Positions 13,804 through 60,488 of a stretch of 64,000 bases of DNA are shown here, one piece after another. Location of the stretch: positions 62,001 through 126,000 of IMG/VR virus record IMGVR_UViG_3300046501_000132; one strand, given 5' to 3'. The stretch is from a virus. A program made the translations under genes and the position numbers. The notes beneath the pieces were generated by a model that ran no database searches, was not told the origin of the DNA, and saw nothing but the letters and a program-made list of their open reading frames with translations. Numbering within the stretch: the first letter of the stretch is position 1; every line of letters starts with the position of its first letter.

Positions 13804-14838
13804 ATGGCAATCGACTTTAACGCACTACGCGCTCGTAAGGGTACCAACTTCCAGTCTCTACAAACAAAGCTAGAAAAGACTGGTCAATCAGGCGGATTCA
13901 AGAAGGATGAACGTCTGTGGAAGCCTACGCGCAATGCAAAGGATAACAAGTCTGTAAACATCATCCGTTTCCTACCTATCGCATACGTTGATGAAGTTGG
14001 CGTGGAAGAAGGTAAGTACAAGGGTGAAGACCTGACCCCTATGGCTAAGATTCTCAAGCATGCCTTCCAAGGTCCCAAGGGATGGTATATCGAGAACAGT
14101 CTACAAACCTTCGGTGAAGATTGTCCTGTTCGTGCCTTCGATGGTCCTCTATGGGGAACTGCGAAGAAGAACAACGACGAAATCCTGAAGAACACTCTCA
14201 AGAAGCGTCTACCGAATACGACTTATTACGCCAACGTTCTGATTATCAAGGATGGTACTAATCCTGAGAACAACGGTAAGGTCATGATCTATGAGTTCGG
14301 TGAGACCGTGCGCAAGCTGCTTGAAAAGTGTAACAAGCCTGAATTTGACACCGATCCGATCTTCGACCCGTTTGATATGTTCGAAGGTGCTGATCTCTTG
14401 CTGAACCTTACTTACACCAAGAAGAAGATTGGTGAGAAGGAATTCGACGTTGCGAACTTTGACAGCGTCCGCTGGGCACCTCCTGCCCCGCTCGCCGGTG
14501 GCGATGAGCAAGAAATGGAACGTATTTGGAAGGCGGAACACTCTATCGCTGACTTCTATGACCGTAAGCACTTCAAGTCTTACGATGATCTGAAGGCCAA
14601 GTATGAAAAGGTTATGGGCCTGACCGACGGTGGTTCTAGCGCGCCTGCTGATACGGGTAAGCCGAAGACCGCTGAGCAAATGCTTAACGAAATGACCGGT
14701 GGTGGTAAGTCTACCGCTGAACCTGCAGAAGCAAAATCTGCGCCGGAACCGTCTGCTGGTAATACGGCAGAACCGGCAAAGCTGGCTGGCGATGACGACA
14801 GCATGGCTGAATTTGAAGCGTTGCTGAAGGGTATGTAA
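13804..14838 (+). CDS. 32: gp32-like single-stranded DNA-binding protein
   Basis: T4 gp32 coats ssDNA in replication, recombination and repair. At 344 aa it is somewhat longer than T4 gp32 (301). The N terminus is basic (MAIDFNALRARKG...SLQTKLEKT), like the cooperative domain. The core has many aromatic and basic residues, including VNIIRFLPI and a D-C-P motif at about 103. The C terminus is a long acidic, Ala/Glu-rich tail ending DDDSMAEFEALLKGM, the protein-interaction tail of this family. Position after gp33 supports it. Its own transcript ends at the hairpin 14843. Confidence 0.85.
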   Translation: MAIDFNALRARKGTNFQSLQTKLEKTGQSGGFKKDERLWKPTRNAKDNKSVNIIRFLPIAYVDEVGVEEGKYKGEDLTPMAKILKHAFQGPKGWYIENSLQTFGEDCPVRAFDGPLWGTAKKNNDEILKNTLKKRLPNTTYYANVLIIKDGTNPENNGKVMIYEFGETVRKLLEKCNKPEFDTDPIFDPFDMFEGADLLLNLTYTKKKIGEKEFDVANFDSVRWAPPAPLAGGDEQEMERIWKAEHSIADFYDRKHFKSYDDLKAKYEKVMGLTDGGSSAPADTGKPKTAEQMLNEMTGGGKSTAEPAEAKSAPEPSAGNTAEPAKLAGDDDSMAEFEALLKGM

Positions 14839-14914: not shown

Positions 14915-15523
14915 ATGTTTACCCTTGCAGTGGATGTTGATTTGACGGTTGTCGATACGCTGACTCCGTGGATGGAATGGTTTAAGCAATATACAGATGA
15001 GCCTGTGAAGAATGAGGACAAGGCTTATAATCTTGATCCGGAAATGCGTGTGATTCTGGCTCGTGCCGGTCGTTCCGATGTTGATCCAGTTGCATATTGG
15101 AAGAAGCCTGACCTATATGATAATCTGGATCCGATTCCAGGAGCGGTGGAGAATCTCAAGTATATCAGCGATAACTACAACGTAGCTGTAGTATTCGCCA
15201 GTACCTGCTTCCCGGAACATACCGCTTCCAAAGAACGCTTGATCAAGCGTTGCTTTCCTTTCGCAGATGGGTTTATCGCCACCCACGATAAGCATTTTAT
15301 CGGTTACGATGCTCTGATCGACGATAAGTTGCATCATATGCAGATGGGTCGTTTTTTCCGACCGAAAGCTCAGCATATTATCTTCACTGGAGTCCGCGCA
15401 GATGGGACGGACATCGACAGGTTGCCTTTGACCAAGATGAAAGATTGGAACAAGTTGGAACGAATTCTGGATCATACACGTCCCGCCAGCCGCTTTACTC
15501 CTGCCTTCGCATACGCTACTTGA
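14915..15523 (+). CDS. HAD-family 5'(3')-deoxyribonucleotidase-like protein
   Basis: Begins with TLAVDVDLTVVDTLTPW, the DxDxT nucleophile motif in a context typical of NT5C-type deoxyribonucleotidases. VVFASTCF is the motif II strand, RFFRPKAQH may carry the basic residue, and YDALIDDKLHHM provides the acidic motif IV. Length 202 aa fits a small-cap HAD. It precedes the predicted thymine-hypermodification enzyme by 50 bases. Phosphate removal from a nucleotide or modified base intermediate is plausible but not shown. Confidence 0.72.
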   Translation: MFTLAVDVDLTVVDTLTPWMEWFKQYTDEPVKNEDKAYNLDPEMRVILARAGRSDVDPVAYWKKPDLYDNLDPIPGAVENLKYISDNYNVAVVFASTCFPEHTASKERLIKRCFPFADGFIATHDKHFIGYDALIDDKLHHMQMGRFFRPKAQHIIFTGVRADGTDIDRLPLTKMKDWNKLERILDHTRPASRFTPAFAYAT

Positions 15524-15539
15524 TATGAATGCTGTTAGG

Positions 15540-15549
15540 CTAAATTTAG
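15540..15549 (+). promoter_or_regulatory. palindromic late-promoter-like box CTAAATTTAG
   Basis: Perfect 10-base palindrome containing CTAAATT, 26 bases before the next ATG. Same class as the boxes before virion genes. Confidence 0.4.
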
Positions 15550-15574
15550 TTTTCTAGCCTACAAGGGATTATAA

Positions 15575-16642
15575 ATGAAGAACCGAGCAAAAGACGTATT
15601 GTATTGTGGTGTGGATATGCACCGAATCCTCAACGCGAAGCCGACTCTGAACACTGAAGTCTTGGCGAGTCTGTATGAGTTCGTCAAGGATCGATATGAA
15701 ATTCACAAGAAGAAGGATGTGGAGAAGCTGCCAGCTCCATGGACGACCAATCCTATCTTCCTTCAGGTGAAGTTCACGAACGTCCGCCGCGAGCATGATC
15801 GTGAGTCGCGTAACGTGATTGAGAACATTTGTTCCAAGACTGGGTATAGTCTGAAGGATCGATTCTTCAATATCATCCTGATGCGCTTCTGGAACAAATT
15901 TGAATCATATCGCCTAGCCACTGGCGGTCAGATGCTAAAGTTCCCGTTGAGCGATGAGGACTTCGCTGCTTGTAATAAGCGCATCGAAGACAATCCTGAC
16001 CATACCTGGTGGAGCGGCGCGTACTATACCTGCCCGGTGCGCAGCTGGATGGAACGGATTCATTTCAAGAAGGAAGTCCCGACTGACGAACTGAACTTCA
16101 GCCAGTCGCCAATCTATTTTGCTAAGTATGCGCTTACCGACGAACTGTGGGCGGATATGGAAGCCGCGAAGTCTCCACTAGAGTTGTTCGAGCGTCTGAC
16201 GTCGATTCCTTGGATGGGCAAGTTCCTGGTTTATCAGTGGTTCGTGGACTTCACATACTGCGAGGATTACTGGTTCAGCGAGAATGAGTTCACAATCTCC
16301 GGTCCTGGATGTACGAAGGGTATCAACCTGTTGTTCGAGGATCGGGATGGAATGACGCACGAGGAATGTCTATTCTGGATGCGAAATAACCAGATGGATA
16401 TGTTCGGTCGATTCGGTTACAATCCGAATGAGCTGTTCAACGATCTTCCGGATCACGATCGTTTCATCAATATCATGTCTTTCGAGAACTTGATGTGTGA
16501 ACTTCAGAAGTATATGAAGGGCGTTGAGGCCGTCAAGACTGGAAAGAAGCCGCGCGGAAAAAGCTCTTATGATGGAAGTGGGGCAAAGGTCGCTAAGAAA
16601 GCGAAGAAGGTTGAACCAGTTGTGAACCTGTTTGATATCTAA
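15575..16642 (+). CDS. alpha-glutamyl/putrescinyl-thymine pyrophosphorylase-like DNA hypermodification enzyme
   Basis: The protein (355 aa) follows the pattern I remember for the aGPT-PPlase families predicted in phages such as phiW-14 and SP10. A PAPWTTNPIFLQVKFTNV segment leads to RREHDRESRNVIENI (W-T--PI, FTNV-RE-DR). FFNIILMRFWNKFES, WWSGAYYTCP and TSIPWMGKFLVYQWFVDFTY come next, then ENEFTISGPGCTKGI (GPG--GI). These helix-hairpin-helix, glycosylase-like proteins are thought to replace the pyrophosphate on activated hydroxymethyl-uracil in DNA with an amine such as putrescine or glutamate. The C-terminal 40 residues are Lys-rich. A HAD nucleotidase precedes it. Activity is inferred. Confidence 0.8.
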   Translation: MKNRAKDVLYCGVDMHRILNAKPTLNTEVLASLYEFVKDRYEIHKKKDVEKLPAPWTTNPIFLQVKFTNVRREHDRESRNVIENICSKTGYSLKDRFFNIILMRFWNKFESYRLATGGQMLKFPLSDEDFAACNKRIEDNPDHTWWSGAYYTCPVRSWMERIHFKKEVPTDELNFSQSPIYFAKYALTDELWADMEAAKSPLELFERLTSIPWMGKFLVYQWFVDFTYCEDYWFSENEFTISGPGCTKGINLLFEDRDGMTHEECLFWMRNNQMDMFGRFGYNPNELFNDLPDHDRFINIMSFENLMCELQKYMKGVEAVKTGKKPRGKSSYDGSGAKVAKKAKKVEPVVNLFDI

Positions 16643-16836: not shown

Positions 16837-17436
16837 TTGAGTAAATCGCCATTTCAAGATCACTTTGCAGTGATCGATCTAGAAACCCTGGCAGCAGGAA
16901 GTGACGCCCCCATTCTGTCTCTAGGGTTGACAGTTGGTCGTTACGACGACACGGATCAGTCGTTCGACACGCTTATCGCGGGTGGACTATACCTGAAGTT
17001 CAATCTGAAGGAACAACTGGAGAAAGGTCGCAAACCTTCTGAGCGGGTAGTTAACTGGTGGTATCAGCAAGACGCCACGGCAAAGAAAGTTCTGGGTCCG
17101 GACCCGGCTAATGAAGTCTCGCTGTATGACATCAAAAGTCATCTGCTGAACTTCTTCCAATCTAAAGGATTGGATATCAAGCAGATCGATCTATATGACC
17201 GTAACTGCTTCGATATTTCCAAACTTCAGTATCTGGTTGAAGAGGAACTGAAGGAAGATGTGTTTTGGAATTATCATCAAACCTTCGACATCCCCACTGC
17301 TTTCCGATTCCTGGGTTTTGATCGTTACGGGGGTGTGCGTGTCTCGGACATCACTGGCGCGGTATACCACAATGCTCTTCACGACGCAGCCGTTGATCAA
17401 CTGCGTATCTATAAATGTCTACATTCTGAAGTATAA
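16837..17436 (+). CDS. dexA: DexA-like 3'-5' exonuclease
   Basis: DnaQ-fold exonuclease: AVIDLETLAAGSDAPILSLGL carries DxE of motif I, YDRNCFDISKLQYLVEE the second motif, and HNALHDAAVDQL the HxxxxD of motif III. GLYLKFNLKEQ followed by RKPSERVVNWWYQQDATAKK is very like T4 exonuclease A, which has KFDLK...STIEWWKNQSPEARK. 199 aa against 227 in T4. The start is a TTG at 16837 with AGGAATT before it. Probably degrades DNA ends or host DNA. Confidence 0.82.
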   Translation: MSKSPFQDHFAVIDLETLAAGSDAPILSLGLTVGRYDDTDQSFDTLIAGGLYLKFNLKEQLEKGRKPSERVVNWWYQQDATAKKVLGPDPANEVSLYDIKSHLLNFFQSKGLDIKQIDLYDRNCFDISKLQYLVEEELKEDVFWNYHQTFDIPTAFRFLGFDRYGGVRVSDITGAVYHNALHDAAVDQLRIYKCLHSEV

Positions 17437-17789: not shown

Positions 17790-18413
17790 ATGAAGTACAC
17801 CAAAGAAGTTAAACCAGCAAGAGCGTCGGTGCCGGTGGTGTTGGCATCCCCAGACGTCAAATCATATTCTCCGATTGGGTATGAATCCCCATCGGTCCCG
17901 CCTGTCGTAATGTATATCTACGATGAGATTGGACCCGAAGTTGATTATGTAGATTTCGTGCACTCCCTGCGTTATGCTCCGGCCGGCCAGGATATCACCA
18001 TCCACATCAACTCCCCAGGCGGTAATCTAAATTCTTGCCTCTCCATTATCAATGCGATCGCAGCCTCTGAGGCTAACATCACAACGGTTGTGGATGGCGA
18101 AGCGGCCAGCGCAGCGGCTATGATTTGGCTAGCAGGTCATGCGAAACTGATCGCCTCTAGACATACGTTGGTTATGCTCCACGGGGCAAGCGTAGGCTAC
18201 AACCCTTCTAAAACTTCGGACATCGTGAATAGCACTAGCGCCACAAACAAGATTGTTGAGGCTTTACTAGATGAACTAACCGTTGATGTCCTGACGGAAC
18301 AAGAACGCGGAGACATCCGCAAGGGCGTGGACATCTACCTCACCGGTGGAGAACTAATCGACCGACTGTCTCTTGGCGAACAAGAGGAATATCCACAAGT
18401 TGACAATACTTAA
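17790..18413 (+). CDS. ClpP-like serine protease
   Basis: 207-aa protein with the ClpP/crotonase fold pattern: ITIHINSPGGNLNSCLSIINAI (oxyanion GG), VDGEAASAAAMIW with the catalytic Ser in A-A-S-A-A, LVMLHGASVGY with the catalytic His, and TGGELIDRLSLG where the Asp would sit. Phage ClpP-type proteases usually act on the prohead scaffold, but T4-type phages normally use the unrelated gp21. This one may be a processing protease or may act on host Clp substrates. A late-type box and an inverted repeat precede it; it overlaps the deaminase gene. Confidence 0.78.
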   Translation: MKYTKEVKPARASVPVVLASPDVKSYSPIGYESPSVPPVVMYIYDEIGPEVDYVDFVHSLRYAPAGQDITIHINSPGGNLNSCLSIINAIAASEANITTVVDGEAASAAAMIWLAGHAKLIASRHTLVMLHGASVGYNPSKTSDIVNSTSATNKIVEALLDELTVDVLTEQERGDIRKGVDIYLTGGELIDRLSLGEQEEYPQVDNT

Positions 18414-18894
18414 AGCAAAGTTTGCTTTCGCGCACGCGAAAGCAGCACGTAACTACGCAGATGAACTATCATATTGCGTACGCCGAAAGGTAGGCGCTGT
18501 TATTGTAAAAGATGACAGCATCATTTCTTTCGGCTACAACGGTATGCCATCAGGCGAACCGAACGTTTGTGAATTGGCAGACGGTTCAACAAATCCTAGA
18601 GTCAGACATGCAGAGATTAATGCTTTGCGTAAACTGATCCGGTCTAGTGAATCATCAATTGGTTCCATAATGTTTGTTACAGATTCCCCATGTCCCAACT
18701 GTGCTATTGAGATTGCGGAATCCGGAGTTGCGGCAGTTGTTTTTGAGCGCGAATACAGCGATGTTTCAGGTATCATACACCTATTGAACAAAGAAGTCAA
18801 AGTATATCGTGTTGATACGGAAGAACGGATTATTTGTAGGGTGATGGGCCACAACCTCACCGGCTCATATGAAGTCGATAGTATCATGTGTTAA
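18400..18894 (+). CDS. cd: dCMP deaminase
   Basis: Zinc cytidine-deaminase fold: RVRHAEINAL gives the His-Ala-Glu zinc/proton motif and DSPCPNCAIEI the paired cysteines. VRRKVGAVIV...GYNGMPSG is the standard start of dCMP deaminases such as T4 gpcd. It converts dCMP to dUMP, feeding thymidylate or hydroxymethyl-dUMP synthesis. Start chosen as TTG 18400, which has GAGGAA about 11 bases upstream; a TTG at 18373 would lengthen the N terminus without a ribosome binding site. Overlaps the protease gene by 14 bases. Confidence 0.87.
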   Translation: MTILKAKFAFAHAKAARNYADELSYCVRRKVGAVIVKDDSIISFGYNGMPSGEPNVCELADGSTNPRVRHAEINALRKLIRSSESSIGSIMFVTDSPCPNCAIEIAESGVAAVVFEREYSDVSGIIHLLNKEVKVYRVDTEERIICRVMGHNLTGSYEVDSIMC

Positions 18895-27421: not shown

Positions 27422-30163
27422 ATGAGTGATAGCTGGTACACGAACGTAGATGTTCGTGGTAATAAGGTTTTTCTGCGGTACGTTGAAGGCGACCAACACA
27501 AGATGGAAGTCGTTGAATTCGGCCCTGAGCTGTATATTCGTACAAACGATGCTTCTAAAGCCGACGCAATGTCGATGCATGATGAACCCCTAGAAGCCGT
27601 ACAATTCCAAGATCACCGTGAGATGCGGAAGTTCATTGAGTCATATAAGGACGTTGATGGATTCTCTGTTTATGGTACTGAGAGTATCATGAACCAATTC
27701 GTGTCTAGGGCTTATGCAGGTGAAATCAAATATGACGGTCAAAAGATTCGCGGCGCGATTCTGGATATTGAAACTTTCTCGGGTGATATCGAAGTTGATG
27801 AATATGGGACGGTAAATCCTGTTGATGGTCCCTTCCCCGATCCGTATGAGGCGAGTCATCCGATCAACTTGATCACCGTTTATTCTACTGTTGAGAAGAA
27901 GTTCTATTCTTGGGGTCTGGAGTATTTCAAGGATCAATTCATAGGAACCTACGTACATAATCCTGAGCATGACCGCGTGGGTAAACTGAATGTGACCTAC
28001 AAGGGCTTCAAGGATGAGTACGCGATGTTGAATGACTTCGTGGCTTGGTGGCAAGTACAAGGATTCAACTATTGGTCCGGCTGGCACATTGAGGGCTTCG
28101 ATAATCCGTATCTAACGAATCGTATTGAGAAGGTTTGTGGAGAAGCAGCAAAGAAGAAACTTAGTGTCTGGAACATGATCAGCAAGCATACCTTCACCAA
28201 CGACTTCGGTGAAGAAATGACTGTGTTTGAATGGTTTGGTACTCAGATGCTGGACTATAAGCAATTGTTCGAGAAACACGGGTTTATGAACCCTGAGGAC
28301 AAGAAGCTAGACACGGTGGCGAGGCTGATCCTGGGTGAAGGTAAGGTTGACTATAAGGCTGAAGGTAATCTCAACACTTTGTATATCCGCAACTATCAAA
28401 AGTCTGTGGAATATAACATCGTTGACGTTGATCTGATCGTCCGGATGAACAACAAGAAACGCTTCTTTGAACTCACATTCATTCTAGCGTATCTATGTAA
28501 GGCCAACTATGTTGATACGCTTGGAACGGTAAAGCCCTGGTCGGCTCTGACGTATTCGATGCTTTGTGAGAAGGGACAGCGTCCTAAGATCAAGTCTGTG
28601 TATGAAGGTGACGTTCAGTTCGGCGGTGGCTTTGTTCGTGAAATGAAGGGCGGTCGGTTTCGTTGGGTTGTATCTTGTGACTTGAACTCTCTTTATCCTC
28701 ACTTGATCCAACAATACAACCTCGGTGCTGAGACGATTATCGAGCCTGAGGATTTGCCTGCTGAGGTTAGAGCACTTCCTGCCTTCACGATGGATGATCT
28801 TGTTAACCAACGAGTCGATCTATCTGTGTTGAAGAAGTATAACATTTGTATGACTGCAAACCGAGCATTCTTCAAGCGCGGTAAGAAGTCTATCTTCAAC
28901 GAAAAGACGCGGGAGATTTACGACACGCGGAAGAAGGTGAAGAAGCAGATGTTGGTCTTTGAACAGCAAGAGGTCGATCTTCAGGCTAAGATTGGGGACC
29001 GTGAACCGACTGCCGAAGAACAAGCGACACTGGATGACTTGGCAATCAAGATTTCGACATACGATGTCCATCAGCACTCGCTGAAGATTCTGATGAACTC
29101 GCTGTTTGGTGCAATCGGAAACAAGTGGTTCAAGGAATGTTTTGATGTTCGAGTCGCTGAAGGGATTACACTATCTGGTAAGCTGTCGATTCTGTGGATT
29201 GCTCGTAAGCTAGATGAGTATCTGAACAAGATTCTCGGTACTGGTGAGACGAAACACAAGATTCATCACGTATCGAAACCTGCATCGACGAAGCTAGAAG
29301 TATTGGGCGGTAAGAACTACGCGATTTATCAGGACACTGACTCGTGTTATCTGGATATGTCTGGTCTTGTGGACAAGATGTTCACCGCAGAGCAGCAGAA
29401 GGAAGACCCTGAGAAGATTGTTAATTTCTTGGATAAGCTGTTCAACGATAAGATCGAACCGTTCATCAACAAGTGCTATGAGGAACTGGCCGACTACGTG
29501 AACGCTGATGACCAGCGTATGTTCATGAAGCGAGAAGTTATTGCTACGGATGCAATCTGGGCAGCCAAGAAGCGTTACACGATGCTTGTTGCTGACTCGG
29601 AAGGCGTGCGGTATTGGCCGAAGATGTATCACAAGACGGTGGGTCTGGATGCGGTGAAAACCGAAGCCCCGAAACTGTGTCGTGAGTGGATGCTAGATTG
29701 TTACAAGATTGCTCTGAGTGGGACCGAACAGGAACTACAAGACTATTGCGCTGAGCGTAAGAAAGAGTATTTCGCTTTGCCTATTGAAAAGATGGCTAAG
29801 GTGTCCGGCGTGAACGGGATTGAAAAATATTCAGACCCTAACACGATGTACATCAAGGGTACGCCAAAGCACGTGAAGGCGGCGATCTGGCATAATCACT
29901 TGGTCGATAAGTTGGGTATCAAGGGTCTGTCTAAGGTTCAATCCGGAGACAAGATTATGTATGTTGACTTGAAGATGCCCAATCCTTATATGTGCGAGAC
30001 CATCGCCTTCCAAGGTAAGATTCCGCCCGATTTTAAGTTGGATAAGTATGTAAACTACGAAGCGAACTATGAGAAGTTGTTCATTGGTTATCTGAACAAC
30101 CTTATCAACGTAGTCAACTGGTCTGCGGTTCGTCGCGCATCGGTCATGGACTGGTTCGCGTAA
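27422..30163 (+). CDS. 43: family B DNA polymerase, T4 gp43-like
   Basis: 913 aa (T4 gp43: 898). The exonuclease domain has ILDIETFSGD (Exo I D-x-E), a GWHIEGFDNPYL (Exo II region, N-x-x-x-D type) and VEYNIVDVDLIVRM (Exo III Y-x3-D). Polymerase motifs: SCDLNSLYPHLIQQ (motif A), KILMNSLFGAIGNKWF (motif B, K-x3-NSLFG) and YQDTDSCYL (motif C, DTD). The end of T4 gp43 binds the clamp; here the C terminus is WSAVRRASVMDWFA. Single uninterrupted gene with its own promoter and terminator. Confidence 0.95.
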   Translation: MSDSWYTNVDVRGNKVFLRYVEGDQHKMEVVEFGPELYIRTNDASKADAMSMHDEPLEAVQFQDHREMRKFIESYKDVDGFSVYGTESIMNQFVSRAYAGEIKYDGQKIRGAILDIETFSGDIEVDEYGTVNPVDGPFPDPYEASHPINLITVYSTVEKKFYSWGLEYFKDQFIGTYVHNPEHDRVGKLNVTYKGFKDEYAMLNDFVAWWQVQGFNYWSGWHIEGFDNPYLTNRIEKVCGEAAKKKLSVWNMISKHTFTNDFGEEMTVFEWFGTQMLDYKQLFEKHGFMNPEDKKLDTVARLILGEGKVDYKAEGNLNTLYIRNYQKSVEYNIVDVDLIVRMNNKKRFFELTFILAYLCKANYVDTLGTVKPWSALTYSMLCEKGQRPKIKSVYEGDVQFGGGFVREMKGGRFRWVVSCDLNSLYPHLIQQYNLGAETIIEPEDLPAEVRALPAFTMDDLVNQRVDLSVLKKYNICMTANRAFFKRGKKSIFNEKTREIYDTRKKVKKQMLVFEQQEVDLQAKIGDREPTAEEQATLDDLAIKISTYDVHQHSLKILMNSLFGAIGNKWFKECFDVRVAEGITLSGKLSILWIARKLDEYLNKILGTGETKHKIHHVSKPASTKLEVLGGKNYAIYQDTDSCYLDMSGLVDKMFTAEQQKEDPEKIVNFLDKLFNDKIEPFINKCYEELADYVNADDQRMFMKREVIATDAIWAAKKRYTMLVADSEGVRYWPKMYHKTVGLDAVKTEAPKLCREWMLDCYKIALSGTEQELQDYCAERKKEYFALPIEKMAKVSGVNGIEKYSDPNTMYIKGTPKHVKAAIWHNHLVDKLGIKGLSKVQSGDKIMYVDLKMPNPYMCETIAFQGKIPPDFKLDKYVNYEANYEKLFIGYLNNLINVVNWSAVRRASVMDWFA

Positions 30164-34570: not shown

Positions 34571-35257
34571 ATGAGCAGCAAGGTAGTAAAACTGTCGCAG
34601 GATACCCTGCAAGTGCTGAAGATTGCACATACCATTAATAAGTCCCTAGTCTTTAAGGCGGGCAACGAAATCAAGACCGTATCGGCTACCGGCGCAATCG
34701 TTATGGAAGCGACTGTTGCTGAAACTTTCCCGGCTGATTTTGCGATTTACGAGTTGAATAAGCTGCTTGGTGTTCTAGCCCTGCCAGCGTTCAAGGATGC
34801 GGAACTGGTCTTCGAAGATGGCGTTGATACGCATATGACGATCAAGGCCGGTGACTCCAAGATCAAATACTTCTACACCTCCGAAGACTTTGCTCAGCAC
34901 CCCGGCCGCACCATCGTGCTCCCGAAGGTGGATGTGGAAGCGAATGTGAACCGCGATACGCTGGAAGGCTTCGAAAAGGCCGCTGCGGCTCTTGGTCACA
35001 AGGTGATGAAGTTCCAGGTGAAGGACAAGGTTCTATCTCTGATCGCTACGACTCCGGAAATCGACACCTCCAACGATTATGTCGTTGAACTGGGTGAATC
35101 GGATAGCGACGATTACGAGGCGCTGATCAAGCTGGAAAACCTGAAGTTGGTTCCAGGCGATTTCAAGGTCACGCTTCTGAAGATGAACGGTCGCGGTATC
35201 TCCCGTTGGGAACACCAGCAACGCAAGATTAATACTTTCATTGGGCTGGAACTGTAA
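34571..35257 (+). CDS. 45: gp45-like sliding clamp
   Basis: 228 aa, same as T4 gp45. It carries the repeated beta-alpha-beta layout of processivity clamps: KVVKLSQDTLQVLKIAHTIN at the start, FPADFAIYELNKLLGVLAL, a central IKYFYTSEDF, and the C-terminal VVELGES...LKLVPGDFKVTLL. It tethers the polymerase and, in T4, activates late transcription with gp33 and gp55. Gene order 45-44-62-regA is exactly that of T4. Confidence 0.92.
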   Translation: MSSKVVKLSQDTLQVLKIAHTINKSLVFKAGNEIKTVSATGAIVMEATVAETFPADFAIYELNKLLGVLALPAFKDAELVFEDGVDTHMTIKAGDSKIKYFYTSEDFAQHPGRTIVLPKVDVEANVNRDTLEGFEKAAAALGHKVMKFQVKDKVLSLIATTPEIDTSNDYVVELGESDSDDYEALIKLENLKLVPGDFKVTLLKMNGRGISRWEHQQRKINTFIGLEL

Positions 35258-37657: not shown

Positions 37658-37961
37658 TAAGCTAACCGCCGCTCAAGAAGAACGGCTGACGTTGCTGATT
37701 GAGGAATGTTCTGAAGTGATTAAATGCGCAACGAAGGTGCTGCGCTTTGGTTATGATTCGATCAATCCTTATGCGCCACAGGATGGGACAAATCTGAATC
37801 AGCTACAGCTTGAACTGGGCGATCTATTCGCTATCAAGCGTCTGATGGCCAATAATGAAGATATTGATGTAAAGGCAATTGCTGGACGAGCAGTTTCCAA
37901 ATATAATAAACTACATACGTATCTACGTCAACAACACAACTTTGAAGGAAGCGATAAGTAA
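37644..37961 (+). CDS. MazG-like all-alpha NTP pyrophosphohydrolase
   Basis: 105 aa with LTLLIEECSEVIKCATKVLRFG (E-E-x-x-E metal motif), then QLELGDLFAIKRLM (E-x-x-D) and helical remainder. This is the two-helix metal core of the MazG/dUTPase-2 superfamily. Such enzymes hydrolyse (d)NTPs to monophosphates, so it could remove unmodified dNTPs. Followed immediately by a second protein of the same fold. Confidence 0.72.
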   Translation: MTTSNKLTAAQEERLTLLIEECSEVIKCATKVLRFGYDSINPYAPQDGTNLNQLQLELGDLFAIKRLMANNEDIDVKAIAGRAVSKYNKLHTYLRQQHNFEGSDK

Positions 37962-38512
37962 TGATCAGTATGTTTCAAGCAGTAAGCGATTTGAATGTAG
38001 CCTATGGTAATTCTAAGGGCGATCCGACTAATCCGGATTGGGCGCGACTGGAGAGTCAAGCCAAGAATATTCTGGACGAATACAACGAACTGATGGATGA
38101 TGGTATCTCGGTCAAGAATATCACTGAGGTCCGTGATGCCATCTGCGACATTCTCGTATTCACTCTTGGTCTAGCGCATATGGCTGGTCTTCCGGTTGAA
38201 GAAGATATGGAAGCGGTGGATGCTTCGAATCGTACCAAGTTCTGCCGGAATAATGATGAGCTGGGTCAGACCGCTGCGAAGTATCGTGATCTGGGAGTTG
38301 AGGTCTACGTAGAAGGTTCGTTCCCTTCGATGCGGGTCAAATCTCTGAAAGATCAAGTTGGTTTAGATGGTAAGAACTATCCCGCTAACAAGATGCTGAA
38401 GTCTGTGGCATTTGTTGAGCCGATGCTCAAGCCTCTGGTTTCGTCGTTTGATCTCAACAAAGTCCTGGATGAAGTAGAAGCCGGGGCTGAGTTGCATCCT
38501 CTGGTGGTATGA
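37961..38512 (+). CDS. second MazG-like/phosphoribosyl-ATP-pyrophosphohydrolase-type protein
   Basis: 183 aa. RLESQAKNILDEYNELMDD (E-x-x-E) and TEVRDAICDILVFTLGLAHMAG (R-D-x-x-D) form the metal core. The C-terminal half contains a substrate-type loop SNRTKF...PSMRVKSLKDQVGLDGKNYPANKMLKS. T4-type phages carry such proteins as nucleotide house-cleaners. Start ATG shares one base with the upstream stop. Confidence 0.7.
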   Translation: MISMFQAVSDLNVAYGNSKGDPTNPDWARLESQAKNILDEYNELMDDGISVKNITEVRDAICDILVFTLGLAHMAGLPVEEDMEAVDASNRTKFCRNNDELGQTAAKYRDLGVEVYVEGSFPSMRVKSLKDQVGLDGKNYPANKMLKSVAFVEPMLKPLVSSFDLNKVLDEVEAGAELHPLVV

Positions 38513-46322: not shown

Positions 46323-47549
46323 ATGAAAATTGCGGCTATCTATTGGCCCACTTCCTCGGTTGGAGGAATTAACTCGGTGCTCGTCGCTCTCCGGAAGGAA
46401 GCAGAGGCCAACGGAGACACTTTTGATGTGATCCGTTGTGGGAATCTGAAGACGATCAACCCGACCAAATTCGATGAACCGCAGCTGATTCGCGGCGGCG
46501 ACACGTTCATCACCGTCCATGGCGAGTGCTCTCACCACCCGGACAAAGTTCAAGGCACGGTCAAGTTCTTGGAAGAGAACTATGACGCGCTATACTTCGC
46601 ATACATCTGTCCTCATGCCAATAAGGCTTATGGGGATGATCCGGTATTCTTGCCGATCTATACTGACACCAAACTCCCGAAGGTCGCATTCATCACGGAT
46701 GCTTACTGGGACACATACAAAGACTGGGGCCTGATGTGCCTCCCTCACGTCAAGAAGACGTTGGTGACTCAACCCGCCTACGCGGAGCCGCTTCTGAAGT
46801 ATGGACTGCCGGTTCAAGCAATTGATGCGCCGATCTTTCCTCAAGACGTAAGTCACATCAAGCGTTCGGAAGAACCGCTGGTGGTCTGGACTTCCCAATG
46901 GAAGAACATCAAGGGAATTACCAAGCTGATGCCGGTAATTCCCGAGATCACCAAGGTCGCCAAGATGGATATGTTCTCCAATGGTATCCTGTATTACCAG
47001 ATGCGAGAAACCGATGAGTGGAAGGCGGCAATCGGTCGAGATCACTTCAAGGGATTCGATGGTCAAGGTGAAGCAGATTTCTTTGGCTATGTTCCCCTGG
47101 AGCAAATTCCTGAGATTCTGAAGCACTCGTGGTTCATGATTGACCTTCAGGGAATCGGCAATCCGAAATTCAAGGCATATACGCAAGGTGCGTATAATAT
47201 CACGACAATCGAAGCGCTGTTGTATGGCTCGTGCCCGATCCTAGCCGATCAAGCCAAGCGTTCGATCATCCCTAATGAATTCTTCCTGACCGTTGAAGAC
47301 GCGCGTCAGATTCCGGACCTGATCAAGAATAATCTGAAGTTCGCTCGCGATCAAGATCGTATCGCCGCTGCGCGGGAATGGGTTCTGGAACGCCATTCGT
47401 CCAGCAATATGTATAAGCAAGTGATCGATGCTCTGAACGGGCCGGACCCAGAACCGTTCGATCCAAGCAAGATCGTAGAAGCCGCGCCTGAACCGGAAAA
47501 GAAGCCGGAACCTGCCGCTGCTATGGATATGTTCAATATGTTTGTGTGA
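46323..47549 (+). CDS. GT-B type glycosyltransferase
   Basis: 408 aa. N-terminal MKIAAIYWPTSSVGGINSVLVAL is a first Rossmann strand with the GG loop of GT-B enzymes. PLVVWTSQWKNIKGITKLMPVI (start of the second domain) and TIEALLYGSCPILADQAKRS (E-A-x-x-G donor-site motif) complete the fold. The last 40 residues are Pro/Glu-rich. Start placed at ATG 46323 with TATGGAGAAT. First of a GT-deacetylase-GT set; likely acceptors are modified DNA bases, but a cell-surface target is possible. Confidence 0.72.
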   Translation: MKIAAIYWPTSSVGGINSVLVALRKEAEANGDTFDVIRCGNLKTINPTKFDEPQLIRGGDTFITVHGECSHHPDKVQGTVKFLEENYDALYFAYICPHANKAYGDDPVFLPIYTDTKLPKVAFITDAYWDTYKDWGLMCLPHVKKTLVTQPAYAEPLLKYGLPVQAIDAPIFPQDVSHIKRSEEPLVVWTSQWKNIKGITKLMPVIPEITKVAKMDMFSNGILYYQMRETDEWKAAIGRDHFKGFDGQGEADFFGYVPLEQIPEILKHSWFMIDLQGIGNPKFKAYTQGAYNITTIEALLYGSCPILADQAKRSIIPNEFFLTVEDARQIPDLIKNNLKFARDQDRIAAAREWVLERHSSSNMYKQVIDALNGPDPEPFDPSKIVEAAPEPEKKPEPAAAMDMFNMFV

Positions 47550-47552
47550 TCT

Positions 47553-48116
47553 ATGACGACATTTTACGTGCTGGAAGCCCACATTGACGATTCGTTCTTG
47601 TCGATGCACCGTCATATGACGGATTGGATCAAACAGGGCCATACCGTGATCATCGGTTCAGTCTACACCGGAGGTCGGAAACGCGACACGGAAATCAAGG
47701 CTTACGCTGAGCTCATAGGAGCCTCTACGCACTGCTATTTCCATGACCCTGAGCTAGACCCAGACCTGGGTGAGTTCACGCTCCCTAGCTCATTTATGCT
47801 GGGCCGTGAAGCACTCACAATCGTATGTCCTATCGCTATCCAGAACCACCAGCACGTGAAGCTGAGGGAATGGGTGGAGAAGTCGGTCAAGCCCGATCTG
47901 TATTACTTGGACATTCCGTACTACACCAAGGCCAAGAACGAAGACGAGGTCAACGAGAAGCTGAAAGGCTTCAAGATTGTGAGTGTGAAGAAGCCAACTC
48001 ACATGAAGGGCAAGGACAAGTACTGGAAGTGCTTCAAAGGACAATCCAAGTATTTCTTCTATAACCCGCCTGAGAGTTGGGTTCAGATTCCGGAAATCCT
48101 ATTGGAGAAAGAATGA
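47553..48116 (+). CDS. LmbE/PIG-L-type N-acetylglucosaminyl deacetylase-like protein
   Basis: 187 aa. FYVLEAHIDDSFLSMHRHM holds the A-H-x-D-D zinc motif and VIIGSVYTGGRKRDTEIKAYAELIGA matches the (V-T-x-G--R--E---A---LG) second part of the family. HHVK-type third His lies near IAIQNHQHVKLREW. PIG-L-type enzymes remove acetyl from GlcNAc-linked substrates (GPI, mycothiol, bacillithiol, lincosamide). Between two glycosyltransferases it suggests making a free amino sugar on an intermediate. Overlaps the next gene by four bases. Confidence 0.78.
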   Translation: MTTFYVLEAHIDDSFLSMHRHMTDWIKQGHTVIIGSVYTGGRKRDTEIKAYAELIGASTHCYFHDPELDPDLGEFTLPSSFMLGREALTIVCPIAIQNHQHVKLREWVEKSVKPDLYYLDIPYYTKAKNEDEVNEKLKGFKIVSVKKPTHMKGKDKYWKCFKGQSKYFFYNPPESWVQIPEILLEKE

Positions 48117-49348
48117 AGATCATTATCTATGATAACTTCGTTTGCTCTCCGATGGAAGGTCGTGGTGCGGCGGGTGGTCTGGAGAAGGTGGCGAAGGATG
48201 ATGCTTTCAATCTGACTCGCGCTGGTCATGATGTGATCTTCTTGTATGCGGGACATCAATGCAAGTATGACTTCCCGTTCCGGACGATGCAAGTTCACGA
48301 GAAGTCGAAAGAAGACGTCATCGAGCAAGACGGTAGCATCGTCGCTTGGCAGAATCGGGTCGTGGCGAATGTGATCAACATTATCAAGCGTGAAGAGCCT
48401 GATATCATGTTGTATCATAGTCATACGACTTCCCCGGCCAAGAAGATCATCAAGGAAACTGGAATCCCGACGCTGATGACGATTCACGGGTTCCTGACGG
48501 GCAATCTGTTTATCGACACCGGGCGGATCACCGCCTATCGTGAACTTTGTGAAATGGGCGCGTATCTGGTCACCAATACAGAAGCCACCGGAAAGCGCAT
48601 CTTCAAGCAGGCAAAGTTGGTTCGTGATCGCTACGTCAAGAACGAGCAGGATTATTGGAACTTCGTCCGAATCATTGATGATCAGCTTCCGTTCTATCAT
48701 GACTTCCACCGGACATTCATGTTCGTGGAAGAAGAATTTGAGATCAAGGAATCGAGCGGGCGGGCGATCACCGCATCCCGCGCCGATCCTCTGAAGCTGA
48801 CCCACAAGTTCAAGGACATCAAGCACCCGCTGGACATCTTCTGGAAGTCGTTCCCATCGACAAGTAAGACTTATCCCAAGTGGCTTGAAACCAACCGTGG
48901 ATACTTCGGGGATAATCCTGATATCAAGTTCTATTGGAATTGGAAGTATAGCGGTATCATGGATACGTTCTCTCAAGCCAAGGCGTGTCTGATTACCTGG
49001 CCGGATGAGACTTTCGGATTGACTGCATTCGAAGCCGCACAAAAGGGCGTGCCGTCGATCTGTATGCATAAGGGTGAACTCAGTTGTACGGCTGAGTTCC
49101 TGTCGCGTGTTAGCAAGCCAGTTCTCATCGACTATCGGGACAAGAACTTCGTCGATCAAGTTGTAGATGCGCTCAATAATATCGATGATAGTCTTCATAC
49201 TCGTCAGGCTTTCGCAGAGGACTTCCGTACATACTTCAGCTATACTAGCTGGGTGAATGAGAAAGAGGAATTTATGCGCAGAGCGATCAATATGATGAAA
49301 GAGGTTGGTCGGCCTGAACCGAGTTCCCTGTTTAACGATTGGAGCTGA
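48113..49348 (+). CDS. GT4-like glycosyltransferase
   Basis: 411 aa. MKIIIYDNFVCSPMEGRGAAGG (GG loop), DIMLYHSHTTSPAKKI with GIPTLMTIHGFLTGN (GT4 H-x-H and T-x-H-G pattern), SGRAITASRADPLKLTHKF and the donor-site PDETFGLTAFEAAQKGVPSI (E-x-F-G-L-x-x-x-E-A--GVP) are all typical of family 4. Start ATG 48113 overlaps the deacetylase stop. Second sugar-transfer step of the cluster. Confidence 0.8.
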   Translation: MKIIIYDNFVCSPMEGRGAAGGLEKVAKDDAFNLTRAGHDVIFLYAGHQCKYDFPFRTMQVHEKSKEDVIEQDGSIVAWQNRVVANVINIIKREEPDIMLYHSHTTSPAKKIIKETGIPTLMTIHGFLTGNLFIDTGRITAYRELCEMGAYLVTNTEATGKRIFKQAKLVRDRYVKNEQDYWNFVRIIDDQLPFYHDFHRTFMFVEEEFEIKESSGRAITASRADPLKLTHKFKDIKHPLDIFWKSFPSTSKTYPKWLETNRGYFGDNPDIKFYWNWKYSGIMDTFSQAKACLITWPDETFGLTAFEAAQKGVPSICMHKGELSCTAEFLSRVSKPVLIDYRDKNFVDQVVDALNNIDDSLHTRQAFAEDFRTYFSYTSWVNEKEEFMRRAINMMKEVGRPEPSSLFNDWS

Positions 49349-49349
49349 T

Positions 49350-49793
49350 GTGAGTGTTCTGAATGCAGTGAAGCGCGCCTATGGGGTCATGGAACAACGT
49401 GGGTGGGATACGGTCTATTGGGCTGTCGATCTCCACGGTGTATGTCTGGAATCCAACTACAAGCAGGGTGGTTACCAGTGGATCAACCAGACCGCGAAAG
49501 AGACGCTTCAGTTGATTTCGATGCTCCCCGAGAGCAAGATCATCCTCTGGTCGTCGGTACACGCCAATGAACAATACGATATTATCAAGTTCTTTCGGGA
49601 TGCAGATATTGCAGTTTTCGATTTCAATCAAAACCGATTCGAGAAAAGCAATCACTGTTCCAACTTCGATGAGAAGTTCTACTTCAGCGTTTTGCTGGAT
49701 GATAAGGCTGGATTTGATCCGAAAACAGATTGGGCTGAGATTAACACGTATTTGACGTTGCAAGCGTATGGAAGAGGGTTGTTCAATGAATGA
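49350..49793 (+). CDS. HAD-like phosphatase protein
   Basis: 147 aa from GTG 49350. VYWAVDLHGVCLESNYK gives the D-x-H-G variant of the HAD nucleophile loop, SKIILWSSVHANE the motif II Ser, and FYFSVLLDDKAGFDP the acidic end motif. The second Asp of DxD is replaced by His, so catalysis may be altered. Located at the end of the sugar cluster, it may act on a sugar phosphate or a phosphorylated base intermediate. Confidence 0.62.
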   Translation: MSVLNAVKRAYGVMEQRGWDTVYWAVDLHGVCLESNYKQGGYQWINQTAKETLQLISMLPESKIILWSSVHANEQYDIIKFFRDADIAVFDFNQNRFEKSNHCSNFDEKFYFSVLLDDKAGFDPKTDWAEINTYLTLQAYGRGLFNE

Positions 49794-49973: not shown

Positions 49974-50234
49974 ATGAGTATGAGTCAGTACGCGACAAAG
50001 GAAGAATACCAAGCGTCGCAAAACAATAAGCCGGTGGTGCATTTTCTCAATGAGGCCACTTTCGAAGACAACTGGATGGGAACCGGCTGTAAGGTTGCCC
50101 ATTGTGTGGTGATCGATCACCCGCGTCTTGGTCAGAGTGATGTACGCACGAGTGCAGTCATCAAGATCAATGAGGATGGTTCGTTCGAAACTCGCAATAG
50201 CATCTACCAACCGATTCAACAACTGAACGGTTAA
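49974..50234 (+). CDS. hypothetical protein (86 aa)
   Basis: ATG 49974 after AAGGAG. Beta-rich with CKVAHCVVIDHPRLGQSDVRTS. Not recognised. Ends overlapping the next gene (TAATG). Confidence 0.55.
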   Translation: MSMSQYATKEEYQASQNNKPVVHFLNEATFEDNWMGTGCKVAHCVVIDHPRLGQSDVRTSAVIKINEDGSFETRNSIYQPIQQLNG

Positions 50235-50734
50235 TGGCTGGGCGGGTAGTTAAACCGCCAGTCAGACGAGAAAACGCTTACACAGAGGTGAGCGTTTTTC
50301 TTGCTGGCAGCATCGAAATGGGCAAGGCGGTCGATTGGCAGTACGCACTAGGCGAATCTCTGACCTACTTCCACGAAGTGGGTAATATATACAATCCAAG
50401 GCGTGACGACTGGGACTCCAGTTGGGAACAGCGCAAGGATAATCCTCAGTTCAACGAACAAGTCACTTGGGAGTTGGATCATATTGAGGATGCAGACATC
50501 GTATTCTTCAACTTTATCCCCGATACGCAATCCCCCATCACTCTCCTAGAGCTGGGATTTGCGCTGGGTCAGATGAAGGAAGTCATCGTTTGTTGTCCTC
50601 CAGGCTTCTGGCGTAAGGGAAATATCGACATCCTTTGTGATCGTGAGTCGGTGACAGTTTATGATGACTACACGCAGGCAATCGCTGCACTATATAAGAG
50701 GATACACGGAATCTATGAGGAAATGAAACAATGA
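50234..50734 (+). CDS. nucleoside 2-deoxyribosyltransferase-like protein
   Basis: 166 aa. SVFLAGSIEMGKAVDWQ, YNPRRDDWDSSWEQ, NEQVTWELDHIEDADIVFFNF and SPITLLELGFALGQ follow the family closely (F-L-A-G-P/S, N-P-R-R-x-D-W, Q-x-x-W-E, SPI-L-EL/G with the catalytic Glu). These enzymes exchange bases on deoxyribose or cleave the glycosidic bond of deoxynucleotides. In this cluster it could supply or remove an unusual nucleoside. Confidence 0.8.
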   Translation: MAGRVVKPPVRRENAYTEVSVFLAGSIEMGKAVDWQYALGESLTYFHEVGNIYNPRRDDWDSSWEQRKDNPQFNEQVTWELDHIEDADIVFFNFIPDTQSPITLLELGFALGQMKEVIVCCPPGFWRKGNIDILCDRESVTVYDDYTQAIAALYKRIHGIYEEMKQ

Positions 50735-58713: not shown

Positions 58714-59736
58714 TTATCTCTGTGGGTAATTCTTGAAGTTGTTTATCTCGCCTTTTAGGCTTCCTAGTTGTGACTTAGTATCATTGACGACTGCAACAAC
58801 TTCCTTCTTGACATCATTGGGGATGTTCTTGATGGCCTTAACATCCTTCACTACTCCCTGAAGAACCTTGACGCCGTCTAGGGCTTGCATCTTCGCATCA
58901 CGGACTTGTTCCCGAACGTCACGAGCGACGGCCAGAACTCCATCCAGTTGACCCTTGAATTCCTTAACAGTATTTACTGTCTCTTTTACAGCGTCACTAA
59001 ACGAATCTAGCCCTGGAATCGGCAATAGACGATTCTTACCAGAACCAACTCCAGGAATCGCAACAGGCGGAATGCCGTTACCAGCGAGTTTGCCTAGGGA
59101 ACCCGAATCTGGTTCAGCGCCATAGGTGACTTTGTGAAAGGCCCAGTTGACGTCAATAACCATTTGTTGATTCTGAGCGGTGCGATCTAGACGAATTGCT
59201 CCAACAGCAGACGGCCAAGCTTCAGTCAAGGTGAACTGATATACTGTCTTGTCTTGACTATCAAGACATTCTACAATGATACTGGAAATGTAATCATCAT
59301 AGAAGTTGACCGCATGTTGGGATTCATCAACGATGAGGTTGTGCCATTGATCAAATAACGTCTTTTCTGCATAGTTGCCTGTAACTAGAAACGTTGTATT
59401 AACGTCACTATATTGACGACCGTTGGCAATCTTACGTGTATAGTTGCCGTATGAGATTTCAGTATTCGTTTCTTGAACCGCAGGAATATCGACCATCAGA
59501 CACGTTAAGGAAATCGTCTTAGAGACATCAGTGGTGCTGTTGATCGCAGAGGCGATGTCTTCCGCAGACGCAAACTGCGATGAGATAGCATTGGTCTGAT
59601 CGGTATTGTTCGCCCGATTTGAAGCCTTTGCTCCTAATCCAGCAGGTAGGTTGAATGTAATCTTGAATCGGTTAACGCGGGCAATGTTCTGCTTCTTAAC
59701 AAGAGCCAGAAAATCCCCAAGAGCAGTCTTAGCCAT
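58714..59736 (-). CDS. 54: gp54-like tail-tube initiator
   Basis: 340 aa (T4 gp54: 320). RVNRFKITFNLPAGL at the start, ISLTCLMVDIPAVQETNTEI, YTRKIANGRQYSDVNTTFLV with FDQWHNLIVDESQHAVNFYDDY, then VYQFTLTEAWPSAVGAIRLD are the tube-fold motifs. A C-terminal coiled region (VKEFKGQLDGVLAVARDV) is an extra. It nucleates tube polymerisation on the baseplate. Late box 37 bases upstream; spanin gene follows by two bases. Confidence 0.83.
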   Translation of the reverse strand: MAKTALGDFLALVKKQNIARVNRFKITFNLPAGLGAKASNRANNTDQTNAISSQFASAEDIASAINSTTDVSKTISLTCLMVDIPAVQETNTEISYGNYTRKIANGRQYSDVNTTFLVTGNYAEKTLFDQWHNLIVDESQHAVNFYDDYISSIIVECLDSQDKTVYQFTLTEAWPSAVGAIRLDRTAQNQQMVIDVNWAFHKVTYGAEPDSGSLGKLAGNGIPPVAIPGVGSGKNRLLPIPGLDSFSDAVKETVNTVKEFKGQLDGVLAVARDVREQVRDAKMQALDGVKVLQGVVKDVKAIKNIPNDVKKEVVAVVNDTKSQLGSLKGEINNFKNYPQR

Positions 59737-59772
59737 GTTCTCTCCGAGTTAAATAGTTGTGAGTGTACTTAA

Positions 59773-59779
59773 TATTTAG
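59773..59779 (-). promoter_or_regulatory. late-promoter-like box CTAAATA
   Basis: Minus strand CCTAAATATTAAG 37 bases before the gp54 ATG. GTTAAATAG on plus (59748) could serve the divergent 59790 gene. Confidence 0.5.
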
Positions 59780-59789
59780 GGATCAGACT

Positions 59790-60488
59790 ATGGCAGCTAT
59801 TGACGTCGATGAAGACGACTTCATGAGACCGGAGATCATCCAGTCCTATATCGACAAGTTTCAGAAGGCGACTAGCAGCGGCGCGACTATGGAACGGCAC
59901 AGCCGTGAGAGCCTAGACTGGTTTCGCAAGCGGGTGGGTAAGGACTTGAAGTACAACCGTAGGCGTCTGATCAAGGACAACGGTGACTACAAGATTCGGA
60001 AAGGTCGTGAGAACAAGACCCTAGTGGGAAGACTATATTACTTTGAATATGATGCTAAGGAAGCGGGGGACCGTGAACTAGGCGTCTATGACCGATTCCC
60101 AATGGTATTTGTGTTTAACACTTCGATCTCCAATGATGGAGCGAAGCTGATCCACGCTATCAATATGCACTATCTGGTTCCGCGCGAACGGATGCTTGTA
60201 TATCTGAAGCTAATGAAGCTACGAAACAAGAAGGGTTGGACTCATGCAACGAAACTCAGGGCCAGCTGGGCCCTGTTGAAGTCGGTCGCAGAACACAATC
60301 TATTGAAGCGTGCAGTTCATACTTACCGCGTTGATCGTGTGGTCGGTTCCAGAATGGTAGAGATTCACGCAGCAGATTGGGAAATCGCTACATTCCTACG
60401 ATTGGAAGACTGGCGCAAGCCCGACTCTACGGCAGCTAACCAAAAGAGCGTTCGTAGGTCACATCTGGCTAAGTCGAAAGGTAAATAA
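59790..60488 (+). CDS. virion-associated protein candidate (232 aa), YDRFP family
   Basis: Start ATG 59790. The protein is basic; RLYYFEYDAKEAGDRELGVYDRFPMVFVFN and GAKLIHAINMHYLVPRERMLVYLKL form a pattern I recall from T4-type phage proteins annotated as DNA end-protector-like or structural (Y-YDAK---LPYYDRFPL---, G-N-HYLP---R). The C terminus is Lys/Arg-rich. It may bind DNA ends at packaging (a gp2-type job), but this is uncertain. Diverges from gp54. Confidence 0.5.
   Translation: MAAIDVDEDDFMRPEIIQSYIDKFQKATSSGATMERHSRESLDWFRKRVGKDLKYNRRRLIKDNGDYKIRKGRENKTLVGRLYYFEYDAKEAGDRELGVYDRFPMVFVFNTSISNDGAKLIHAINMHYLVPRERMLVYLKLMKLRNKKGWTHATKLRASWALLKSVAEHNLLKRAVHTYRVDRVVGSRMVEIHAADWEIATFLRLEDWRKPDSTAANQKSVRRSHLAKSKGK

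Follow-up and report, generated by a model that had tools for sequence, protein, structure and literature searches.

An HMUDK_hel gene of a T4-like phage and the possible fate of its thymine-hypermodification pathway

What task falls to a thymine-hypermodification protein in a phage genome in which its partner enzymes are not detected? The question is raised by an open reading frame at 15575-16642(+) of a 64,000-nucleotide window, the whole stretch of DNA analyzed here, which corresponds to positions 62001-126000 of a 170,684-bp virus record. The two ends of the record share 175 bp, with a single mismatch, and it is therefore probably complete. Approximately 60 of its proteins have homologs in phage ViI (Vi01), several core proteins are nearer to those of Delftia phage phiW-14, and a tRNA scan found none. 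The initial annotation spoke of a T4-type phage; this holds if T4-like is understood broadly, but among the phages compared the record is closest to Ackermannviridae and phiW-14. We favor, with a probability of roughly 0.6, the reading that the encoded protein (hereafter hel) is the helical DNA-handling component of a 5-hmdU DNA kinase system, that the kinase/amino-acid module has been lost, and that the phage DNA would contain 5-hmdU, bare or decorated.

Family, conservation, and predicted fold of hel

The frame starts with ATG, is open across exactly this interval, and encodes 355 amino acids. In a profile search, these match Pfam family PF18723 (HMUDK_hel) over positions 1-273 of 281 at 215.8 bits (E 1e-63; curated cut-off, 25 bits), which confirms, at the level of sequence, a real gene and a PF18723 member. 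PF18723 represents the helical domain or subunit of 5-hmdU DNA kinase. In PHROGs, hel falls in phrog_2396 ("unknown function"; E 1e-81), and by sequence comparison it is the ortholog of ViI orf160 (36% identity). Searched by tblastn, it matches 388 phage records, mostly Ackermannviridae and Vibrio phages at ~35-50% identity. Versions in four environmental contigs are 75-81% identical, and a sequence search of solved structures gave no match.

The initial annotation had placed this protein in the "aGPT-PPlase" group of thymine-hypermodification enzymes, a pyrophosphorylase name that is the older label for the hel group. The family assignment is borne out, and the ordered motifs that were quoted for it coincide with the conserved columns of the family. 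The pyrophosphorylase function is not, as current models place the clade of hel as the helical part of 5-hmdU DNA kinase, and they do not make it a transferase either.

Conserved family columns in hel comprise R40, F67, N69, R72, D75, R104, N107, F217, and D225, together with GPG 243-245 and C308-E309-K312; all columns that are invariant in a 44-sequence family alignment (9/9) are kept. Relative to three relatives, pN is 0.13-0.17 and pS is 0.72-0.87, and with pN well below pS, hel is under purifying selection. This strong conservation argues for the original DNA-base task. An AF2 model of hel (pLDDT 89) is all-helical, with residues 1-330 well folded and residues 330-355 forming a disordered tail. 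In a Foldseek search of BFVD, the model matches the 637-aa SP10 5-hmdU DNA kinase (E 1e-10; TMq 0.68) as well as proteins of phiW-14, phiRSL1, and Microbacterium phage Lucky3 that carry the helical-domain name. Furthermore, a P-loop kinase directly adjoins hel in YuA (gp13/gp14) and Bustleton (gp54/gp53). The best PDB match of the model, a weak one, is the 5-PmdU glycinyltransferase PUGT (8z2n; prob 0.96, E 0.08, TMt 0.45), and hel and ADDT may therefore share an ancestral fold.

Hydroxymethylase, neighboring genes, and the search for partners

The absence of a hydroxymethylase noted by the initial annotation applies to the window only. A dUMP-hydroxymethylase-type ThyA is encoded outside it, at record 141755-142840(-) (phrog_3676; E 1e-85). 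In an ML tree, this enzyme is nested among the dUMP hydroxymethylases of phages whose DNA is derived from 5-hmdU, namely SP8, SP82G, ViI, phiW-14, and YuA (96/93, 99/99), and the canonical ThyA proteins are set apart in a group of their own with full support; its nearest neighbor is phiW-14 (support 89/79), a finer placement that is uncertain given the long branches of the tree. The enzyme has PCN as its signature and retains Asn177, where canonical enzymes have PCH and dCMP-type enzymes have PCT/Asp177. The order thyA-dNMP kinase-dUTPase-uvsX-gp41 is the same in ViI. We consider 5-hmdU likely to be present in the DNA of this phage. The dNMP kinase of the block (record 140842-141813(-); L008:14842-15813) has an N-terminal extension of ~140 aa that resembles a phage HNH-associated segment and is a possible mobile-element fusion.

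A different ThyA-family state occurs elsewhere. Asp replaces Asn177, with PCT, in the hel-bearing IMG/VR contigs L026, L038, L057, and L064, and likewise, with ICT, in Microbacterium phage Bustleton (L024). This PCT/Asp177 state is like that of T4 dCMP hydroxymethylase, and in these genomes the substrate of the hel system may be 5-hm-dC.

Upstream of hel lie a gp32-like single-strand DNA-binding protein (13804-14838(+); 50% identity to ViI ssb) and a HAD/NT5C-type deoxyribonucleotidase (14915-15523(+); PF06941, 2.8e-10). The 51-bp junction between the latter and hel (15524-15574) is similarly short in four related contigs (L016-L019). In phiW-14 a homolog of the HAD protein adjoins gp32, and in ViI one is encoded in the vicinity of orf243/orf247. 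The gene order in phiA8-29 is polymerase-(two genes)-HMUD2-ADDT-hel, in which hel is directly preceded by HMUD2 and ADDT. Downstream are a DexA-like exonuclease (16837-17436(+); PF16473, 3.5e-14; 31% to ViI dexA), a dCMP deaminase for dUMP supply (18373-18894(+); PF00383, 2.2e-18; 41% to ViI dCMP deaminase), and a homolog of the ViI orf161 MazG-like pyrophosphatase (37961-38512(+); 34% identity, 8e-22). The HAD nucleotidase directly upstream and the nearby dCMP deaminase were thus correctly recognized in the initial annotation. It also named MazG-like proteins in the plural, of which one is listed here, and a P-loop kinase at the left edge, which was not found; the left-edge frames include UvsY and an ANT-domain-like protein.

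In ViI, Pfam assigns orf67 (HMUD1) to PF18748, 5-hmdU DNA kinase; orf160 to PF18723; orf243 (HMUD2) to PF18747, 5-hmdU DNA kinase 2; orf247 (ADDT) to PF18724; and orf226 to a PLP-type enzyme. The roles given here to these reconstituted pathway genes follow the Pfam names, and PF18724 (amino acid:DNA transferase) is a family separate from PF18723. Across the whole record, PF18748, PF18747, and PF18724 have zero matches at E up to 10, and PF18751 and PF00291 have zero matches at E up to 1. Searched against the record by tblastn, ViI HMUD1, HMUD2, ADDT, and PLP proteins give no significant match, and of the pathway proteins of phiA8-29, D503, YuA, phiW-14, and Bustleton, hel alone matches. Maximum-sensitivity searches with custom profiles, built from four HMUD1-type kinases and from five ADDTs, recover no kinase or transferase in the record; their only match is a remote one (0.012) between the home-made ADDT profile and hel itself.

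A six-frame Walker-A scan of the record returned helicases, PhoH, gp44, the dNMP kinase, an AAA-type ATPase, and a single small P-loop protein of the AAA_28 type (record 2135-2698). Within the window, the only genuine Walker-A proteins are UvsW, PhoH, and gp44, and an extra pattern match falls within the C-terminal linker of hel. Neither a P-loop kinase domain in hel nor a partner HMUD1 gene was found by profiles or Walker-A scan in the whole record. The AAA_28 protein has relatives in phages of Caulobacter, Erwinia, and Prevotella, and its resemblance to gp67, YuA gp13, and the phiW-14 kinase stops at the P-loop. The relative G004, a 116.8-kb fragment, has no PF18748, PF18747, or PF18724 match either.

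Of the two enzymes for which the initial annotation had pointed to the full genome, the ThyA-like hydroxymethylase is therefore present and the 5-hmdU DNA kinase was not found. Its proposal that genomic thymine may be replaced by amine-bearing derivatives is not supported as far as the known route is concerned, since searches of this complete-looking genome detected neither HMUD1 and HMUD2 nor ADDT nor the PLP enzyme. The missing partners suggest instead a cut-down pathway or a different chemistry, possibly involving sugars. Absence of a profile match is not proof that a kinase is absent, because phiW-14, which makes PPmdU, likewise lacks PF18748 and PF18747 matches. In phiW-14, a 267-aa P-loop protein at NC_013697 31329-32129 (L135:11329-12129) is related to YuA gp13 at 2e-8 and is the probable 5-hmdU DNA kinase of that phage, overlooked by PF18748; no counterpart of this Walker-A kinase-like frame was found in the present genome. 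A G004 match to the phiW-14 kinase (0.003) was rejected as a 128-aa protein without a P-loop.

C-terminal tails, the sliding clamp, and a glycosyltransferase operon

The tails of T4 gp43, gp33, and gp55 are interchangeable clamp-binding motifs (PMC2988020), and T4 alpha-glucosyltransferase binds gp45 (PMC13216743). The window encodes a homolog of the ViI gp45 sliding clamp (34571-35257(+)) and a Family B DNA polymerase (27422-30163(+)) whose tail, RRASVMDWFA, is similar to KASLDFLFG, with which T4 gp43 ends. The tail of hel, VEPVVNLFDI (16610-16639(+)), is a candidate sliding-clamp-binding peptide, and relatives end in VNLFEGF or VNLFEFNE. Ranked for likeness to the polymerase tail of the same phage, the hel tail (VVNLFDI) stands at 92 of 238, or 31 of 91 on ortholog pairs, and is not significant. 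This rank test was designed after the pattern had been seen and uses ORF sets from our own greedy calls.

In several relatives, the match is closer. The ViI polymerase ends in RRVNLLSMMGKKG, orf160 in SVNLLDRLKKPE, orf243 in SVSLLGLMRKA, and orf247 in SVNLMSLLKR; the hel, ADDT, and HMUD2 tails of ViI rank 4, 2, and 3 of 194, with a joint chance (the probability of all three enzymes ranking that high) of ~3e-6. In Vibrio phage D503, a basic-LW ending is common to the polymerase, HMUD2, ADDT, and hel, and hel, ADDT, and HMUD2 rank 2, 1, and 4 of 196 (joint chance ~3e-6); in G011 they rank 2, 3, and 9 of 209 (~6e-5). Similarly, in phiW-14 (polymerase tail LGAFF), ADDT ranks 3 and hel 7 of 205, and the kinase-like frame has the polymerase-like ending LGGFFKG. 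A common acidic-W-hydrophobic tail occurs in L052, L058, L065, and L066. phiA8-29 differs, as KKLW-type tails are common to its three enzymes but unlike the polymerase tail; gp55 of this phage, which belongs to a known class of clamp clients, ranks 3 of 181. This lineage-specific match of hel, HMUD2, and ADDT to the polymerase points to gp45, and we infer that the 5-hmdU hypermodification enzymes of these relatives are tethered to the sliding clamp. Such covariation offers a testable reason for modification following replication, in that the enzymes would ride the clamp.

Two other proteins have comparable tails. In Vi01, the 70-aa orf00053 (L011:30355-30567(-)) ends in KVNLLSLMRK, which matches the ViI polymerase tail better than any other tail does, and is a candidate small clamp client. 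A homolog of the ViI exonuclease at record 59416-60174(-), which adjoins UvsY, has the polymerase-like tail SSVFDFC (DLFAMFA in G004) and is a possible clamp client.

Polymerase-like tails also occur in an operon further along the window. It encodes GT1 (46323-47549(+)), glycosyltransferase-like as judged by sequence and operon, with the tail AAAMDMFNMFV; a PIG-L-like deacetylase (47553-48116(+)) with an AHxDD motif and a weak PF02585 match (E 0.02); and a GT4 glycosyltransferase (48113-49348(+); PF13439, 4.5e-8; 2f9f mannosyltransferase, 4e-4) with the tail SSLFNDWS. All three are conserved in G004 (80% for GT1, 89% for PIG-L, and 70% for GT4), where GT1 ends in FDMFNMFG. Among viral contigs, relatives of GT1 and GT4 were found in G004 only, and the phages collection gave none; GT1 has no profile match, and its predicted structure has a pLDDT of 32. 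Against the polymerase tail (ASVMDWFA), the GT1 and GT4 tails rank 2 and 8 of 238, and 2 and 4 of 91 on ortholog pairs. A regular-expression test with the pattern in both orthologs gave 6/92 relative to 1.9 expected, a value reached in 13 of 2000 shuffles. With polymerase-like tails in a conserved operon, sugar hypermodification is a live rival, and the operon would point to a sugar-on-thymine chemistry. A promoter motif common to the regions upstream of hel and GT1 was considered and dropped (one window match, 0.6 expected). Just downstream of the operon, at 50234-50731(+), is a nucleoside 2-deoxyribosyltransferase-like gene (PF15891, 2.7e-33).

Possible pathways and their known counterparts

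Under the favored reading, the dCMP deaminase would yield dUMP, the ThyA-type enzyme would turn it into 5-hm-dUMP, the dNMP kinase and host kinases would raise this to the triphosphate, and the T4-like polymerase would build it into DNA. Hel would then bind the 5-hmdU sites of new DNA, probably held at the fork through its clamp-binding tail; in relatives, it would position the base for the P-loop kinase. In the present lineage, the kinase/amino-acid module would have been lost and hel retained, either as a scaffold for another modifying enzyme, with the tailed GT pair as the leading candidate, or in the service of a kinase too divergent to recognize. The expected DNA would contain 5-hmdU, bare or further decorated, and not the aminoethoxy-methyl-dU of ViI. 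If this is true, hel can act without its kinase, and the contribution of the helical partner itself becomes addressable. As modified thymine is one phage route past restriction, the predicted base also bears on phage-host defense.

The glycosyltransferases may have a larger part. GT1, PIG-L, and GT4 could together glycosylate 5-hmdU, with hel as a DNA-binding partner, all clamp-held by their tails, and with PIG-L as a possible means of freeing an amine on the sugar. This tentative alternative draws on the conservation of operon and tails in G004, the ranks of the GT tails, the binding of gp45 by the T4 enzyme (PMC13216743), and some pelagiphages in which aGPT-PPlase1 and TS occur together with a 5'-deoxynucleotidase and a putative HMC glucosyltransferase (PMC9599517). 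However, GT1 lacks a profile match and a confident model, the sole solved relative of GT4 is a mannosyltransferase, the tail statistics are post hoc and modest, and the GTs could target the host envelope or virion proteins. The broader proposal that a sugar module replaced the kinase/amino-acid module in a T4-related lineage, that clamp-tethered hel and GTs decorate 5-hmdU, and that hypermodification enzymes are generally clamp clients is possible, though speculative. We regard as unlikely a hidden but full amino-acid hypermodification, with a kinase and transferase too divergent to detect or with AAA_28 as the kinase of hel. The phiW-14 kinase does escape Pfam models, hel is kept under strong selection, and a small P-loop protein is present; yet the custom profiles recover only hel, the AAA_28 protein is unlike HMUD1 beyond its P-loop and has relatives in phages of other groups, and the gap between HAD and hel is short in five contigs.

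Loss of all partner genes beside a retained hydroxymethylase would also fit a relic or repurposed hel (e.g., in generic DNA binding or repair) in plain 5-hmdU DNA as in SP8/SPO1. We find this doubtful given the 75-81% identity across relatives, the low pN relative to pS, and the retention of every family-invariant residue. Finally, hel itself could be an amino-acid:DNA transferase-like enzyme with a fold in common with PUGT/ADDT. The 8z2n match and the weak ADDT-profile match favor such a role, but hel is a separate protein in the examined ADDT-bearing genomes, has no PF18724 match, and would need a phosphorylated substrate whose source was not detected; we consider it very improbable.

The present phage shares with the 5-NeOmdU pathway of ViI the orf160 ortholog, ThyA-type enzyme, dNMP kinase, dUTPase, dCMP deaminase, MazG-like protein, and thyA-dnk-dUTPase-uvsX-gp41 order, whereas counterparts of orf67, orf243, orf247, and orf226 were not detected. 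With phiW-14 (alpha-putrescinylthymine) it shares close core genes, the nearest ThyA-type enzyme, a HAD gene beside gp32, and the hel family, but phiW-14 has ADDT and the kinase-like frame, and its hel is only ~24% identical. The YuA/M6-type Pseudomonas phages (5-NedU) are alike in the hel family and a dUMP-hydroxymethylase-type enzyme; in these phages, however, hel adjoins a P-loop kinase, ADDT and annotated threonine-dehydratase-like (PLP) and photolyase-like genes are present, and there is no polymerase-like C-terminal tail. HTVC023P-type pelagiphages (PMC9599517) are similar in their reduced gene content (TS, aGPT-PPlase1, 5'-deoxynucleotidase, and putative glucosyltransferase) but are podoviruses. 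With T4 alpha-glucosyltransferase on gp45, there is a precedent for sliding-clamp binding by an enzyme that modifies DNA, although the T4 enzyme acts on 5-hmC and T4 is without HMUDK_hel.

Elsewhere in the record, at 47244-49779 (L002:5244-7779, minus strand), adjacent NAMPT-like and NMNAT/NadR-type genes, seen by inspection of the sequence, are a possible NAD salvage pair. In addition, hel homologs of 36-38% identity occur in L182 and L183, contigs binned as Nanoarchaeota/Woesearchaeota MAGs, which would represent either archaeal viruses or mis-binned phages.
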